Shown here piece by piece: positions 43,708-50,564 of a stretch of DNA of 64,000 bases (position 1 is its first letter; every line of letters starts with the position of its first letter). This DNA comes from Wenzhouxiangella limi (lineage in GTDB: Bacteria; Pseudomonadota; Gammaproteobacteria; Xanthomonadales; Wenzhouxiangellaceae). The DNA lies in NCBI RefSeq assembly GCF_010499265.1, contig NZ_JAAGSC010000043.1, positions 7,843-71,842 on the forward strand, in the 5' to 3' direction. The notes under the pieces are model-generated. The model worked only from the letters and a program-made list of their open reading frames with translations, did no database searches and was not told the DNA's origin. The position numbers were made by a program, and so were the translations under genes.

Positions 43708-43855
43708 TAGCGTAGGAAGGACTGCAAGTTGCCAATTATGAAAGCAACCGATCGTCTGGTCGGTCCACTTCAGCAAGCGGGCATAAAGAGACCTGCCAAT
43801 AGTCCCTGATAGGGGCCAGCAATGCCACGTAAACGACACATTTGGAGAAATGATT

Positions 43856-44164
43856 ATGAGTGACAAGAAAATTCTGACTTCCGCAATCGGTACACTGTCG
43901 GCCCTGTCGTTCTCGCTGGGCGCCATTGCCGCCGAGCCATCGACCGACAACCTGTTCGAGGCCGAATCCCTGGAACGTGGCTTCATGTCGCAGCAGGCCG
44001 GTTTCGAAGAAGGATCCTGCGGCGAAGGTCGGTGCGGTGAAGGTCAGTGTGGCGAAGGCGCGTGCGGTGAAGACGAAGACGAGGACAAGGACGAAGACGA
44101 CAAGGACGAAGAAGGTTCCTGCGGCGAAGGCAGCTGCGGCGAAGGCAGTTGCGGCGAAGCCTGA
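43856..44164 (+). CDS. hvfA: HvfA-like secreted Cys-rich RiPP precursor (EGxCG repeats)
   Basis: 102 residues. A Sec-type signal peptide (ILTSAIGTLSALSFSLGAIAA, cut near Ala26) leads to a short spacer, then four EGxCG pentapeptides (Cys55, 60, 65, 70), an Asp/Glu/Lys run (72-85) and three more (Cys89, 94, 99). In Haemophilus HvfA the cysteines of EGKCG units are turned into thiooxazole/oxazolone-thioamide groups that bind Cu(I); here the third residue is S, R, Q or A instead of K. I start at ATG 43856 because GGAG is eight bases upstream; ATG 43850 is too close to it. Modification and metal are inferred from the adjacent MNIO and DUF2063 genes. Confidence 0.85.
   Translation: MSDKKILTSAIGTLSALSFSLGAIAAEPSTDNLFEAESLERGFMSQQAGFEEGSCGEGRCGEGQCGEGACGEDEDEDKDEDDKDEEGSCGEGSCGEGSCGEA
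44009..44155 (+). repeat. Seven EGxCG pentapeptide units in the hvfA core
   Basis: Fifteen-base coding repeats GAAGGx-xxxTGCGG-type, four in the first block and three in the second, split by a GAC/GAA-rich segment at 44069-44110. The last three copies are nearly identical at DNA level, which suggests recent duplication. Confidence 0.85.
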
Positions 44165-44182
44165 GGCCTTTGGGCTTTGATC

Positions 44183-45034
44183 ATGTCTTCGAATGATCGT
44201 CCGGTGCACGGCGCCGGGCTCGGACTGCGGCGGGCCCTGCTGGGTCCGCTGCAGGACGCGGATCTGGAGAAAGTGGGATTCCTGGAGCTCGCGCCGGAAA
44301 ACTGGATCGGCGTCGGTGGGCGTCTCCGCCGCCAGCTGGCCTGGTATACGGAGCGCTTTCCGCTGGTCTGCCACGGCCTGTCGCTTTCCATCGGCGCGCC
44401 GGAACCGCTCGATTCGTCCTATCTCAAGCGCCTGAGATCGTTTCTGGACGAACACGAAGTGCGCTGTTTTTCCGAGCATCTGAGTTACTGCTCCGAGCAT
44501 GGACACCTGTACGACCTGATGCCGCTGCCCTTCCTGCCCGAAACGGTGGCGTGGGTGGCCGACCGCATTGCCCAGGTACAGGATGCACTCGGCCGGCAAA
44601 TTGCCGTGGAGAATATTTCCTATTACGCGCCGGTAGCGACCGAAATGTCAGAGCTGGAATTCATCAACGAAGTCTGCACCCGGGCCGACTGCCTGTTGCT
44701 GCTGGACGTTAACAACGTGCACGTCAACAGCGTCAACCACGGTTACGACCCCGACGACTTCCTGGCCGGGCTGCCGCATGATCGGGTGGCCTACCTGCAC
44801 GTGGCCGGCCATCATCATGAGGCCGACGATCTGATTGTCGATACCCACGGCGCTCCCGTGGCCGACCCGGTGTGGGGATTGTTGCGTCACGCCTACGGCA
44901 TTCTTGGCGCTGCGCCCACTGTGCTGGAAAGAGATTTCAATTTTCCGCCGGTGCCGGACCTGCTGGCGGAAGTGGCTACCATCGCTCGCCTTCAGCATGA
45001 CCAAGACTCGAAACGCGGCCAGCACGCCGCCTGA
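44183..45034 (+). CDS. hvfB: DUF692 multinuclear non-heme iron enzyme (HvfB/MbnB/BufB-like)
   Basis: 283 residues, a TIM-barrel MNIO enzyme that oxidises cysteines in ribosomal peptides. Likely iron ligands: His64 in VCHGLSLSIG, Glu98/His99 in FSEHLSYC, Glu143 in VENISYY, Asp175, His180 and His186 in LLDVNNVHVNSVNHG, His206 and His210 in YLHVAGHH, Asp220/His222 in DTHGAP and Glu249 in LERDFN. It follows the precursor by 18 bases and overlaps the partner gene, the usual A-B-C order. ATG 44183 is preferred to TTG 44177; no strong Shine-Dalgarno is seen, so coupling to hvfA translation is possible. Confidence 0.93.
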   Translation: MSSNDRPVHGAGLGLRRALLGPLQDADLEKVGFLELAPENWIGVGGRLRRQLAWYTERFPLVCHGLSLSIGAPEPLDSSYLKRLRSFLDEHEVRCFSEHLSYCSEHGHLYDLMPLPFLPETVAWVADRIAQVQDALGRQIAVENISYYAPVATEMSELEFINEVCTRADCLLLLDVNNVHVNSVNHGYDPDDFLAGLPHDRVAYLHVAGHHHEADDLIVDTHGAPVADPVWGLLRHAYGILGAAPTVLERDFNFPPVPDLLAEVATIARLQHDQDSKRGQHAA

Positions 45035-45788
45035 GCGCCAGCTTCGGCTCCAGGCCGAGTTTGCCGCGCACCTGCGTGACCCCGAGCACAATCCGCCGCC
45101 GGCCGGTATCGAGGACCGGCGCCTGGCCATTTACCGGCGGCTGTTTTTCGGCAACCTGCGCAACCTCATGGCGAAAAACTTTCCCGTGCTTCGGCGCATG
45201 CTCGATGATGCCGAGTGGGATCGCCTGATCCGAGAACTGATGGTCGAGCATCGCGCCACCACCCCGCTGTTCCCCGAAATCGGCAGCGAAATGCTCGAAT
45301 TCATTGACGGTCCGGGCCAACACTGGCTGTCGGATCGGCCCTGGATGGCTGAACTGATTCAGTGGGAGTATCTGGAAACCCTGGCCCGGCTGCACGAAGC
45401 CGATGTGCCCGAACAAACGGTGGTGGTGTCGGCCGATCCCGGCCACGATGAGGTGACGCTTAACCCGACCGTGCAGATGGGGCGCTTCGCCTGGCCGGTC
45501 CACCGGATACGCCCCGAGTTCGTTCCCAGCGAGGCTCTGGAACAGCCGATCAATCTGCTGGTTTACCGCCGTCACGATGATCGGGTCGCCTTTGAGCGCG
45601 TCAACGATTTCACGCTGCGATTTCTTCTGTTGGCGCAATCCAATGCCGGCTCGACCGGTCTGGTTTTACTGCAAGCGCTGGCCGAGGAATCGGGCATCAG
45701 CCCGCCGGATCCGGTGATCGAAGCCGGGCGCGGGATGCTGAAGCAGCTCGGCGATCGAGAAGTGATCATATTGACAAGCCCTGGCTGA
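44997..45788 (+). CDS. hvfC: DUF2063 partner protein (HvfC/BufC-like)
   Basis: 263 residues. The N-terminal DUF2063 domain (LQAEFAAHLRDPE, IYRRLFFGNLRNLMAKNFPVL, about 12-110) is the recognised partner of MNIO enzymes and binds the precursor leader in studied systems. The C-terminal half (PEFVPSEALEQPINLLVYR, VNDFTLRFLLL) is a winged-helix-like extension. It overlaps hvfB by 38 bases, so both are translated together. Catalysis is expected to lie in HvfB; HvfC should deliver the peptide. Confidence 0.9.
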   Translation: MTKTRNAASTPPERQLRLQAEFAAHLRDPEHNPPPAGIEDRRLAIYRRLFFGNLRNLMAKNFPVLRRMLDDAEWDRLIRELMVEHRATTPLFPEIGSEMLEFIDGPGQHWLSDRPWMAELIQWEYLETLARLHEADVPEQTVVVSADPGHDEVTLNPTVQMGRFAWPVHRIRPEFVPSEALEQPINLLVYRRHDDRVAFERVNDFTLRFLLLAQSNAGSTGLVLLQALAEESGISPPDPVIEAGRGMLKQLGDREVIILTSPG

Positions 45789-45789
45789 A

Positions 45790-45865
45790 TCACTCCTTTC
45801 GTCCGTCGGCCTTGCAGCGCAGATGCATGGACTGACTGGACGTACCGAACGACTGAAAGGAGTGA
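45790..45865 (+). promoter_or_regulatory. Inverted repeat overlapping the ribosome binding site of the DoxX gene
   Basis: TCACTCCTTTC (45790-45800) is the exact reverse complement of GAAAGGAGTGA (45855-45865). The right arm contains AAAGGAG, the Shine-Dalgarno of the DoxX-family gene starting at 45871. Inner TCGG/CCGA could extend the stem. In RNA the hairpin would hide the ribosome binding site; as DNA it could also be an operator. Confidence 0.6.
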
Positions 45866-45870
45866 GCCTT

Positions 45871-46557
45871 ATGATTGTGAACTTTTACGACGCCCTGACC
45901 CGGCGCCTGCGCGCCAGCGGCGACTGGGTTGCCCCCCTGGGCCTGCGGTTGCTGCTGGCCTACGAATTCTGGACTGCCGGCTACGGCAAATTCAAAGTCG
46001 GCACCGAAGCCCCCACCTGGTTTGCCAACCAGGACTTCGTGTTTCCGTTCGGTCTGCTGTCGGCGAACATGAACTGGGTGATGGTGACCTGGGGTGAAAT
46101 GCTGGCCGCACTGGCCGTGCTGCTGGGCCTGTTTACCCGGTTTTTCGCCTTTTCGCTGCTGGTGATTACCGTGGTGGCCATCGCGGCCATGCACTGGCCT
46201 GCTTCCTGGGACAGCCTCGGCCAGCTCTGGGAAGGCTATTCGGTCTCGCGGGTGATGGACGACGGCGAGTTTCGCGGCAATTTCCGCATTCCCTTCCTCT
46301 TTCTGGCCATGATCCTGCCGCTGGTGTTCTGGGGTGCTGGCAAGCTCAGCCTCGATCATCTGCTGGTCTCGCTTTCGGGACGCCAGGGCCAGTTTCTTGA
46401 ACGCGAGCCGGATCGGGTGGCCTTCGGGCTGGCGACGCTGATTTTTGGTTTGATGGCCATTTTCCTGATCCCGGCCTGGGGTATCGTGCTGCTGTTGCTC
46501 AGCGCCGGACTGCTGGGGTATACCGGATATGGCTGGTATGCCGCGCAGAGGGCCTGA
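45871..46557 (+). CDS. DoxX-family membrane protein of the hvf cluster
   Basis: 228 residues, with six or seven hydrophobic helices. The first part has the DoxX core: LGLRLLLAYEFWTAGYGKF, TWGEMLAALAVLLGLFTRF and VVAIAAMHWPASW, with a GKFK loop. It is longer than typical DoxX (about 150) because two extra helices follow a charged cytoplasmic loop. DoxX proteins occur in quinone-linked or thiol-redox complexes, and one is normally encoded next to HvfA-C or bufferin genes. AAGGAG precedes ATG 45871 by eight bases, embedded in the inverted repeat. Confidence 0.88.
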   Translation: MIVNFYDALTRRLRASGDWVAPLGLRLLLAYEFWTAGYGKFKVGTEAPTWFANQDFVFPFGLLSANMNWVMVTWGEMLAALAVLLGLFTRFFAFSLLVITVVAIAAMHWPASWDSLGQLWEGYSVSRVMDDGEFRGNFRIPFLFLAMILPLVFWGAGKLSLDHLLVSLSGRQGQFLEREPDRVAFGLATLIFGLMAIFLIPAWGIVLLLLSAGLLGYTGYGWYAAQRA

Positions 46558-46638
46558 GCCGTGATGAGGGAGTCCGCCAGTAGCGGCACCGTCCCGGCCT
46601 GTTTGCTGGGGTCGGATCGCCGTAGAGGAGAGCAGGTC

Positions 46639-47274
46639 ATGTCCAGCGAATCCGCCAGAGCCCGGATCTGGGTCGTTGACGACGACCACGCGGTGCGCGA
46701 GGCGATCGGTTTCATGCTCGACAGTCACCAGATCGACTACCGGTTGTTCGATTCGGCCGAAGCCATGCTTGCAGCACTCAAGCCCGCCGATCGGGGTTGT
46801 CTGCTGCTGGACGTGAAAATGCCCGGCATGGACGGACTGGCGCTGCAGACGCGCCTGCACGAAGCGGGTATCACGATGCCGGTGGTGTTCATTTCCGGGC
46901 ACGGAGATATCCGAACCGCCGTGCGCGCCGTTCAGGCCGGGGCACTGGACTTTCTTGAAAAACCGTTCGATGCCGAACTGCTGCTTGAAAAGCTTGACAA
47001 CGCCCTGGAGATCGATCGCGCCGGGCAGGCCGAGCTGGCGGCGCTTGCCGACGTCGAGCAGCGCCTGGCCAGACTGACACCGCGCGAGCGGGAAGTCATG
47101 GAAGGCATGCTGGAAGGCAAGCTCAATAAGCTGATCGCGGCGGATCTCGATATCAGCGTGCGCACCGTGGAGATCCATCGCGCCAACGTGCTCGACAAGC
47201 TGGAGGCCCGCAACGGATCAGACCTGGTGCGCGTGGTACTTTCCAGCCAAAGCTACCGCGACTGGTTGCTCTGA
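46639..47274 (+). CDS. FixJ/NarL-type response regulator
   Basis: 211 residues. Receiver domain 8-125 with acidic pocket DDD (14-16), phospho-acceptor Asp58 in LLLDVKMPG, switch Ser in FISGH and Lys in LEKPF. The LuxR-type helix-turn-helix (about 140-205) has LTPREREVMEGMLEG and ISVRTVEIHRANVLDKL. The linker and receiver resemble the FixJ/TodT group. No sensor kinase is adjacent. GAGGAG lies before ATG 46639. It follows the DoxX gene on the same strand by 81 bases and may regulate or be co-transcribed with the hvf genes. Confidence 0.9.
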   Translation: MSSESARARIWVVDDDHAVREAIGFMLDSHQIDYRLFDSAEAMLAALKPADRGCLLLDVKMPGMDGLALQTRLHEAGITMPVVFISGHGDIRTAVRAVQAGALDFLEKPFDAELLLEKLDNALEIDRAGQAELAALADVEQRLARLTPREREVMEGMLEGKLNKLIAADLDISVRTVEIHRANVLDKLEARNGSDLVRVVLSSQSYRDWLL

Positions 47275-47296
47275 GGTCGTCCGACGCCTTGCTCGC

Positions 47297-47881
47297 TTAC
47301 GGTAGCGTGCTCAACGGGATGGTGATAATGGGCAGCCCAAGCGCGTCGGTTCGCCGGCGCGCGCGCAGGGTCTCGTCGGCGCGGACCCGGTCCAGGTAGT
47401 AGTACAGCTCGGCCACGCCGTGGAACTGCTCGAGCGTGACCAGGTTGAGCCGGGTCGCCTCGTCCAGGCCGGGAACGAAGCCCAGCGGGAGGAAAAAGCC
47501 CCGGTGGCCCTGGTCGGTCCCCAGCGAGGTGTAAAACACCGTCAGCACATGATCGGCTGGCACGAGCGCCGGAACCACTTCAATGTCGAAACGCGCGCGA
47601 AGTTCCATGGCCAGACGCTGATCGGCGTAGCTTTGCAGTTCCTCATCGCCGAGGAAATGCGAGTCGATCCGCAAACGCTTTCCGGACAGTGGGGTGAAGT
47701 CGCTTGTCGGCAGGGCGCCGGCCAGATCGTCGACGGCATAGCTGACCAGGCGCTGGGCGGTGGAGCCGACCAGAGAGTCCTGCGCCTGGCGTGATCCACA
47801 GCCGGCCAGCAGCGCGAGGGCCAGCAGCAGCAACAGAATCCGCGCCAGCGTGACGGGCAGAGGTTCAGGCTTGAAGGTCAT
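47297..47881 (-). CDS. Hypothetical lipoprotein
   Basis: 194 residues. A lipobox LLAGC at Cys28 after a long hydrophobic stretch marks an exported lipoprotein, with Gly-Ser after the cysteine. The mature part has no domain I recognise; it contains SGKRLRIDSHFLGDEELQ and a Leu-rich C-terminus. I start at ATG 47881; an in-frame extension to 47932 adds 17 residues ahead of the signal peptide. It diverges from leuS with 80 bases between. Confidence 0.7.
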   Translation of the reverse strand: MTFKPEPLPVTLARILLLLLALALLAGCGSRQAQDSLVGSTAQRLVSYAVDDLAGALPTSDFTPLSGKRLRIDSHFLGDEELQSYADQRLAMELRARFDIEVVPALVPADHVLTVFYTSLGTDQGHRGFFLPLGFVPGLDEATRLNLVTLEQFHGVAELYYYLDRVRADETLRARRRTDALGLPIITIPLSTLP

Positions 47882-47895
47882 GCCCGGCATGCTAG

Positions 47896-50564
<2,669 letters not shown>

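Follow-up and report, generated by a model that had tools for sequence, protein, structure and literature searches.

We analyzed a window of 64,000 nucleotides of the Wenzhouxiangella limi genome (contig NZ_JAAGSC010000043.1, positions 7,843 to 71,842), in which a precursor gene with EGxCG repeats (hvfA) is followed by genes for a DUF692-family multinuclear non-heme iron-dependent oxidative enzyme (MNIO; hvfB), a DUF2063 partner protein (hvfC), a DoxX-family membrane protein (hvfX) and a FixJ-type response regulator, here called R. Our results indicate that this locus very probably belongs to the published HvfABCX/EGKCG captophorin class of ribosomally synthesized and post-translationally modified peptides (RiPPs), from whose characterised members its chemistry and its handling of copper are predicted. 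The biosynthetic locus is ordinary and the control layer appears to be new. In part of one gammaproteobacterial genus, the operon may have been rewired so that an extracytoplasmic function (ECF) sigma factor without DUF3379 is switched by a FixL-like histidine kinase and the FixJ-like R, with a sequence dyad serving as the hvfA promoter across much of the order; we rate this reading a little below an even chance.

Membership in the captophorin class

Comparison with curated profiles assigned the first four proteins to the HvfA-repeat, DUF692, DUF2063 and DoxX families, as the first-pass annotation had expected, each above the curated cut-off: the precursor scored 29.9 bits against NF050137 (cut-off 19.5), HvfB 410.5 bits against NF003818 (360), HvfC 237.1 bits against NF050145 (142) and the DoxX protein 113.9 bits against the HvfX profile NF050144 (80). 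The last score makes HvfX preferable to HvfD, the name first given. R has both receiver and GerE domains and scored 228.9 bits against the FixJ equivalog NF006900, under its cut-off of 255. An initial label of "bufferin-like" had to be dropped: HvfB reached only 269.5 bits against the BufB profile NF050167 (cut-off 310), and the precursor had no Pfam match, hence no DUF2282. Judged by sequence, the locus is of the EGKCG/HvfA type and not one of the bufferins proper. The precursor scored 21.9 bits against the HvfA equivalog NF050188 (cut-off 95), and the best PDB matches were 3BWW for HvfB (240 bits) and 3DEE for HvfC.

The five open reading frames (ORFs) were confirmed at 43856-47274 in the order first described, as was the 38-base overlap of hvfB and hvfC (44997-45034, given an hvfC start at the ATG at 44997). 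The precursor begins with a Lys-rich segment and a hydrophobic stretch up to AIA-A, judged by eye to be the signal peptide that had been reported, and contains the seven EGxCG units, whose third positions are Ser, Arg, Gln, Ala, Ser, Ser and Ser; all seven Cys of the precursor lie inside these units. In the window's own genome (G000, 3.35 Mb), hvfA and hvfB are the sole matches to the HvfA-repeat profile and to PF05114, respectively.

We compared the locus with 61 related genomes, 30 of them from the window's genus, several genomes being incomplete. hvfC was found (E <= 0.001) in 49 of the 61 genomes and in 21 of the 30 within the genus. An EGxCG precursor, hvfB and hvfC occurred together in the same order in 44 of 48 related loci, all selected by hvfC, so the arrangement is not due to chance.

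Previous studies reported that N175, D242 and H244 (site 3) of HvfB are required for activity (PMC13419390) and that R15, R16, D249 and F250 of FonB are specificity and catalytic residues (PMC13097082). By motif pairing, which is not a structural correspondence, the former set matches N177 or N178, D220 and H222 of the window's HvfB, and the latter R16, R17, D251 and F252. These residues, together with H64, H99, E143 and H206 and including both N177 and N178, were kept in at least 97% of the rows of an alignment of 45 homologues, from which four loci were excluded for want of an hvfB match; the MNIO metal ligands noted in the first-pass annotation show no loss in this alignment.

Predicted product

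In the pathway that we propose, the precursor would be synthesized with a Sec signal peptide and presented by cytoplasmic HvfC, the partner with a RiPP recognition element (RRE), to the diiron MNIO HvfB. HvfB would turn the Cys of each EGxCG unit into a 5-thiooxazole with loss of four hydrogens each, ~28 Da over seven units; the exported peptide would chelate Cu(I) in the envelope, and HvfX would act as a membrane accessory. In fontiphorin, four hydrogens are lost per repeat to give 5-thiooxazole and the product binds copper, and FonB favours small residues at the position that follows Cys (PMC13097082); the EGxCG units keep such a residue, Gly. By analogy with characterised members of the class, cysteine oxidation and copper handling are probable at this locus.

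One point weighs against this prediction: the consensus Lys of EGKCG is absent from all seven units. EGKCG is described as the commonest captophorin motif, so Lys would be typical rather than obligatory, and Lys-free units predominate in most of 22 relatives inspected, with many EGACG and EGSCG units, and EGKCG in a few of them. It might also be argued that the peptide serves mainly for another metal or in oxidative stress (e.g., gold, or thiol chemistry with DoxX) rather than as a copper buffer, given that chromium, gold and oxidants elicit responses from loci related to this one (PMC3511200, PMC2893595, PMC13097082) and that msrA/msrB are also under the Neisseria sigmaE (PMC3511200, PMC2893595). 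However, 5-thiooxazole products are said generally to bind copper (PMC13097082), and the EGKCG product of Microbulbifer chelates copper (PMC12538549); we consider a main role other than copper binding improbable.

The precursors of the genus (43856-44164 in the window, and L033-L061) have scant Lys before Cys and linkers rich in Asp, Glu and Lys between the repeat blocks, unlike the EGKCG consensus.

A regulator tied to hvfX and to a histidine kinase

R orthologues, defined by at least 62% identity (next best 51%), were found in 10 of the 61 genomes (G000, G005, G011, G013, G015, G017, G024, G025, G027 and G028), and hvfX lies immediately 5' of R in all ten. A complete hvfABC set stands beside hvfX-R in five of these (G000, G005, G013, G015 and G028), G025 and G027 have an A-B-X-R arrangement with hvfC elsewhere, and hvfX-R is separate from hvfABC in G011, G017 and G024. 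The linked regulator of the first-pass annotation is real, but it was found in only part of one genus in the searches made, and it is tied more tightly to hvfX than to hvfABC. Residues D14, D15, D58 and K108 of R are invariant across 5 orthologues.

The R-positive genomes do not form one clade in the HvfB tree, where G003 and G010 nest among them and G006 and G022 stand beside G028, so the R module has been lost or moved. Relatives of R in GTDB lie on at least 592 stretches, of which 535 were confirmed, and among the best 80 no slice gave a match to hvfB or hvfX (E 1e-6; many slices are short). One stretch from the Wenzhouxiangellaceae (L101) retains R, the ECF gene and the kinase, on a contig that begins 403 bases before R.

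Kinase orthologues (at least 59% identity; next best 38%) occur in the same 10 genomes as R (Fisher 1e-11, uncorrected for kinship). In 8 of the 10, G028 among them, the kinase gene faces R from the opposite strand; an ECF gene lies between the two in G005, G015 and G025. In G013, a contig break falls between R and the ECF-kinase pair, each at a contig end. The order in G005 is PGI, hvfABCX, R, ECF, kinase, a homologue of the window's 47297-47932 and leuS, and the window has the same frame from PGI to leuS minus the ECF and kinase genes. The kinase of the window's genome has HisKA and HATPase_c domains and a FixL-like core (197 bits, below the cut-off of 850). Its N-terminus gave no PAS match and only GAF_2 at 24.6 bits, under the 28.6 cut-off, and one of three kinases scanned had no GAF match at all. 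HisKA_3 was rejected as a route to the kinase: it had 3 matches, none on R's contig, and the actual kinase carries HisKA.

The gene at 47297-47932 is small and looks lipoprotein-like by eye, without a match in NCBIfam or Pfam; in both G005 and G013, its homologue is flanked by the kinase gene and leuS. In G024, a gene resembling an insertion sequence (IS) transposase by eye lies between the kinase and R (L199, 8785-9738).

An ECF sigma gene preceded by a CGTA box

An ECF sigma gene stands beside the kinase in 6 of the 10 R-positive genomes, the window's own included. The window genome's ECF protein scored 189.1 bits against NF009170 (cut-off 197), and the other R-linked ECF proteins are 58-80% identical to it. 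The motif CGTA-N6-CGTATRG occurs 75-108 bases before the start of all six R-linked ECF genes, and in no case did any of 500 shuffles match as well; four of the six genomes are close relatives in the HvfB tree. The exact 17-mer CGTAGAANTCCGTATGG is found once in the window's genome, upstream of the ECF gene. At 3 mismatches, that genome held 14 CGTA-box matches against 12 for a backward control, and we claim no further targets. A box in L101 has 2 mismatches, with 35 of 500 shuffles equally good, and is unsupported.

These observations could also be read as a direct activation of the hvf operon by R, with the ECF sigma factor as a side branch. The four R-positive genomes without an ECF homologue (E 1e-25), where R must act otherwise, would fit this, as would the hvfA upstream regions of two of them (L052 and L207), which contain an imperfect CGTA-like repeat with 3 mismatches. 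However, the window's own hvfA upstream region likewise comes no closer to the CGTA box than 3 mismatches, R-negative genomes also reach 2-3 mismatches, so that such matches mean little, and exact CGTAGAANTCCGTATGG is single in the genome, 5' of the ECF gene. Action of R on hvfA through a box of the ECF type is unsupported for the window's genome, and we judge direct activation distinctly unlikely.

A candidate promoter dyad before hvfA

The dyad TGMAAK-N17-GGTC (TG[CA]AA[GT]), first read by eye from the hvfA upstream regions of the genus, was present in 21 of the 46 loci whose 300 bases before hvfA were scanned. With any other spacer length between 12 and 23 it occurred in 0-2 of these loci, on the opposite strand in 0-1, and shuffled sets had a mean of 0.05 and a maximum of 1 of 46. 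The loci came from 45 genomes (G057 gives two), with G015, whose contig starts inside hvfA, and G014 and G026, which have no hvfA in the slice, excluded. Apart from the site at 43739-43765, neither strand of the window has an exact match.

Presence of the dyad follows that of an ECF homologue (E <= 1e-25): 19 of 24 ECF-positive loci have it versus 2 of 22 ECF-negative loci (Fisher 1.4e-6). Inside the window's genus the counts were 5/5 versus 2/13 (p 0.002), and a hand count by genus outside it gave 12/15 versus 0/5 (p 0.004), which handles kinship only partly. A form extended to TGMAAK-N17-GGTC-NNG, which excludes the window's own site, gave 7 genome matches versus 9 for the backward control, and we claim no regulon; inspection of two genome-wide dyad matches revealed no clear target.

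In four genomes (G025, G014, G027 and G026), the slice contains hvfC but neither hvfA nor hvfB. The dyad was found before this stand-alone hvfC in G025, G014 and G026 and not in G027, which has no ECF homologue. Upstream of hvfC in L051, L053 and L055 there is, by eye, an endonuclease III-like sequence, which likewise precedes hvfA in several relatives.

The linkage and motif counts together bear on whether R has any part in hvf control, or is instead a hitch-hiker that has come to lie behind hvfX, one half of a FixJ/FixL-type pair with other targets. In favour of a hitch-hiker, 11 of the 21 hvfC-positive genomes of the genus are without R, the hvfX-R-kinase group stands apart from hvfABC in G011, G017 and G024, and the region upstream of the window's hvfA has no good CGTA box. 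Set against this are the constant position of R after hvfX (10/10), its restriction within the genus to genomes with hvfC (10/21 versus 0/9, several genomes being incomplete), the CGTA box borne by the ECF gene that adjoins R or the kinase, and the tracking of ECF presence by the hvfA dyad. We think it somewhat unlikely that R is a mere passenger.

DUF3379 and a possible rewiring of control

DUF3379 was found in 23 of the 61 genomes, all within the 28 that have an ECF homologue, and by coordinates it is adjacent to an ECF gene in 19 of the 23. Five genomes (G000, G005, G013, G015 and G028) have an ECF homologue but no DUF3379. G025 has both, with DUF3379 adjoining a second ECF gene and not the R-linked one. 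DUF3379 resembles anti-sigma proteins weakly (20.5 bits, cut-off 100) and is perhaps an anti-sigma factor; it was not named in the open-access literature searched. This pattern and the CGTA box together suggest that anti-sigma control may have been replaced by the kinase-R pair.

The hvfA-type dyad stands directly before the ECF gene in 3 of 6 ECF loci of the DUF3379 type, and upstream of none of the 6 R-linked ECF genes. In L229, L231 and L234, its end is separated from the likely start codon by 0-3 bases, a regular placing. Self-activation of these ECF genes through the dyad is doubtful, because a site 0-3 bases from the start is too close for an ordinary promoter.

The proposed circuit would run as follows. 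The FixL-like histidine kinase would phosphorylate R, R~P would activate the ECF sigma gene via the CGTA-N6-CGTATRG box, and the ECF sigma factor would read TGMAAK-N17-GGTC before hvfA, leading to expression of hvfABCX-R; with R at the end of the operon, this would amount to a circuit feeding forward on itself. We observed gene content, family, residues, co-occurrence and motif counts directly; each arrow from the kinase through R and the ECF sigma factor to hvfA is our reading of them, and the working of kinase, R and ECF sigma factor as one circuit has, in our view, not quite an even chance.

Several observations weigh against the circuit or the rewiring. The kinase gene of the window's genome is ~204 kb from R, on the same contig; 4 of the 10 R-positive genomes are without such an ECF gene; and the same six sequences served both to derive the CGTA motif and to count it, so that count is not independent. 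With respect to the dyad, five loci in ECF-positive genomes are without it, and G006 and G022 have it before hvfA despite having no ECF homologue at E 1e-25. In the HvfB tree, these two genomes fall together with G028, which is ECF-positive, so a recent loss of the ECF gene or an assembly gap is possible. G014 (73% complete) has the dyad before hvfC and no ECF homologue, and the dyads of G025 and G014 stop 9-10 bases short of the first ATG of hvfC, which is close for a promoter. The base after GGTC is C in the window and T in 16 of the 21 loci.

Table 1. Positions of the genes and sites discussed; plain numbers refer to the window, others to the genome or slice named.
Feature	Position	Strand	Description
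hvfA-like precursor	43856..44164	+	102 aa; EGxCG units in blocks of 4 and 3 around acidic linker; signal peptide; NF050137
hvfB, DUF692/MNIO (MbnB_TglH_ChrH)	44183..45034	+	283 aa; NF003818, PF05114
hvfC, DUF2063 + RRE partner (PME type 1)	44997..45788	+	263 aa; NF050145, PF09836 + PF22106
hvfX, DoxX-family membrane protein	45871..46557	+	228 aa; NF050144, PF07681
R, FixJ-type response regulator (receiver + LuxR/GerE helix-turn-helix)	46639..47274	+	211 aa; PF00072 + PF00196
Candidate ECF-type promoter TGAAAG-N17-GGTC	43739..43765	+	begins 117 bases 5' of hvfA ATG
Junction, site of ECF sigma and histidine kinase genes in G005	47275..47296	.	G013 likewise across contig break
ECF sigma gene of the window's genome	G000:C35:258682-259203	+	~204 kb from window locus
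Histidine kinase gene of the window's genome	G000:C35:259165-260493	-	~204 kb from window locus
Stand-alone hvfC genes	L051 4047-4814; L053 4127-4882; L055 4281-5039; L058 4407-5144		
ECF + DUF3379 pairs	L229 1477-2728; L233 750-1995		

Comparison with known systems

The copper-binding peptide class comprises more than 24,000 loci (PMC13097082), and in the literature found, the only control described so far for such operons is by ECF sigma factors and their anti-sigma partners. No two-component pair controlling such operons was found in our searches of the open-access literature, supplementary files being outside the scope, and none of the matches listed there paired an MNIO with an ECF sigma factor, anti-sigma factor or promoter. 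Judged by their titles, the papers found there for Wenzhouxiangella and RiPPs were unrelated. The main text of PMC13097082 mentions, without elaborating, that "transcriptional regulators" frequently co-occur, and the term "response regulator" is absent from the main text of PMC12452194. Haemophilus RpoE2 controls msrAB, and hvf is not mentioned in the available part of that report (PMC7907618).

The hvfABC/HvfX locus of Haemophilus influenzae, which makes oxazolin, shares with the window the MNIO, the RRE partner, the DoxX-type protein and repeated EGxCG units in a precursor with a signal peptide. The window differs in its precursor score against the HvfA equivalog (21.9 versus 95), in having no Lys before Cys, in the acidic linker between the repeat blocks and in the appended FixJ-type regulator. 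For the captophorin locus fonABC of Fontimonas thermophila (PMC13097082), the RR and DF pairs of its FonB recur in the window, and fontiphorin has seven modified sites, the number predicted here. The fon locus is described as consisting of MNIO, PME1 and precursor only, and the window adds hvfX and R. The mmr locus of Microbulbifer, for bulbicupramide, has EGKCG repeats, an MNIO/DUF2063 pair and a copper-chelating product (PMC12538549); the words regulator, sigma, histidine kinase and DoxX do not occur in the main text of that paper.

In terms of control, R and the kinase core resemble FixJ and FixL at scores under the respective cut-offs (228.9 versus 255 bits and 197 versus 850 bits), and, compared with FixL, the window genome's kinase has an N-terminus with no PAS match and a sub-threshold GAF_2 at most. 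The Neisseria sigmaE operon NMB2140-2145 is likewise an ECF-controlled operon of this kind; its ECF gene lies inside the operon and is held by a ZAS-type anti-sigma factor, its promoter reads GTMAGBWTT, spacer 12-13, CGTCTAAH, and the available part of the report describes no two-component pair (PMC2893595). In Caulobacter, sigmaF controls a precursor-MNIO-DUF2063-DoxX operon, as proposed here for the ECF sigma factor, with a DUF2282 (bufferin) precursor, a GTAACC-N16-CGAA promoter and the negative regulator CC3252 (DUF1109) beside sigF (PMC3511200, PMC12452194). If the circuit proposed here is true, the kinase, R and sigma factor, with an order-wide promoter motif, would form an input-output circuit, open to testing, for copper-binding peptides of a common class, and an example of a sigma factor that may have exchanged control by an anti-sigma protein for control by a two-component system.

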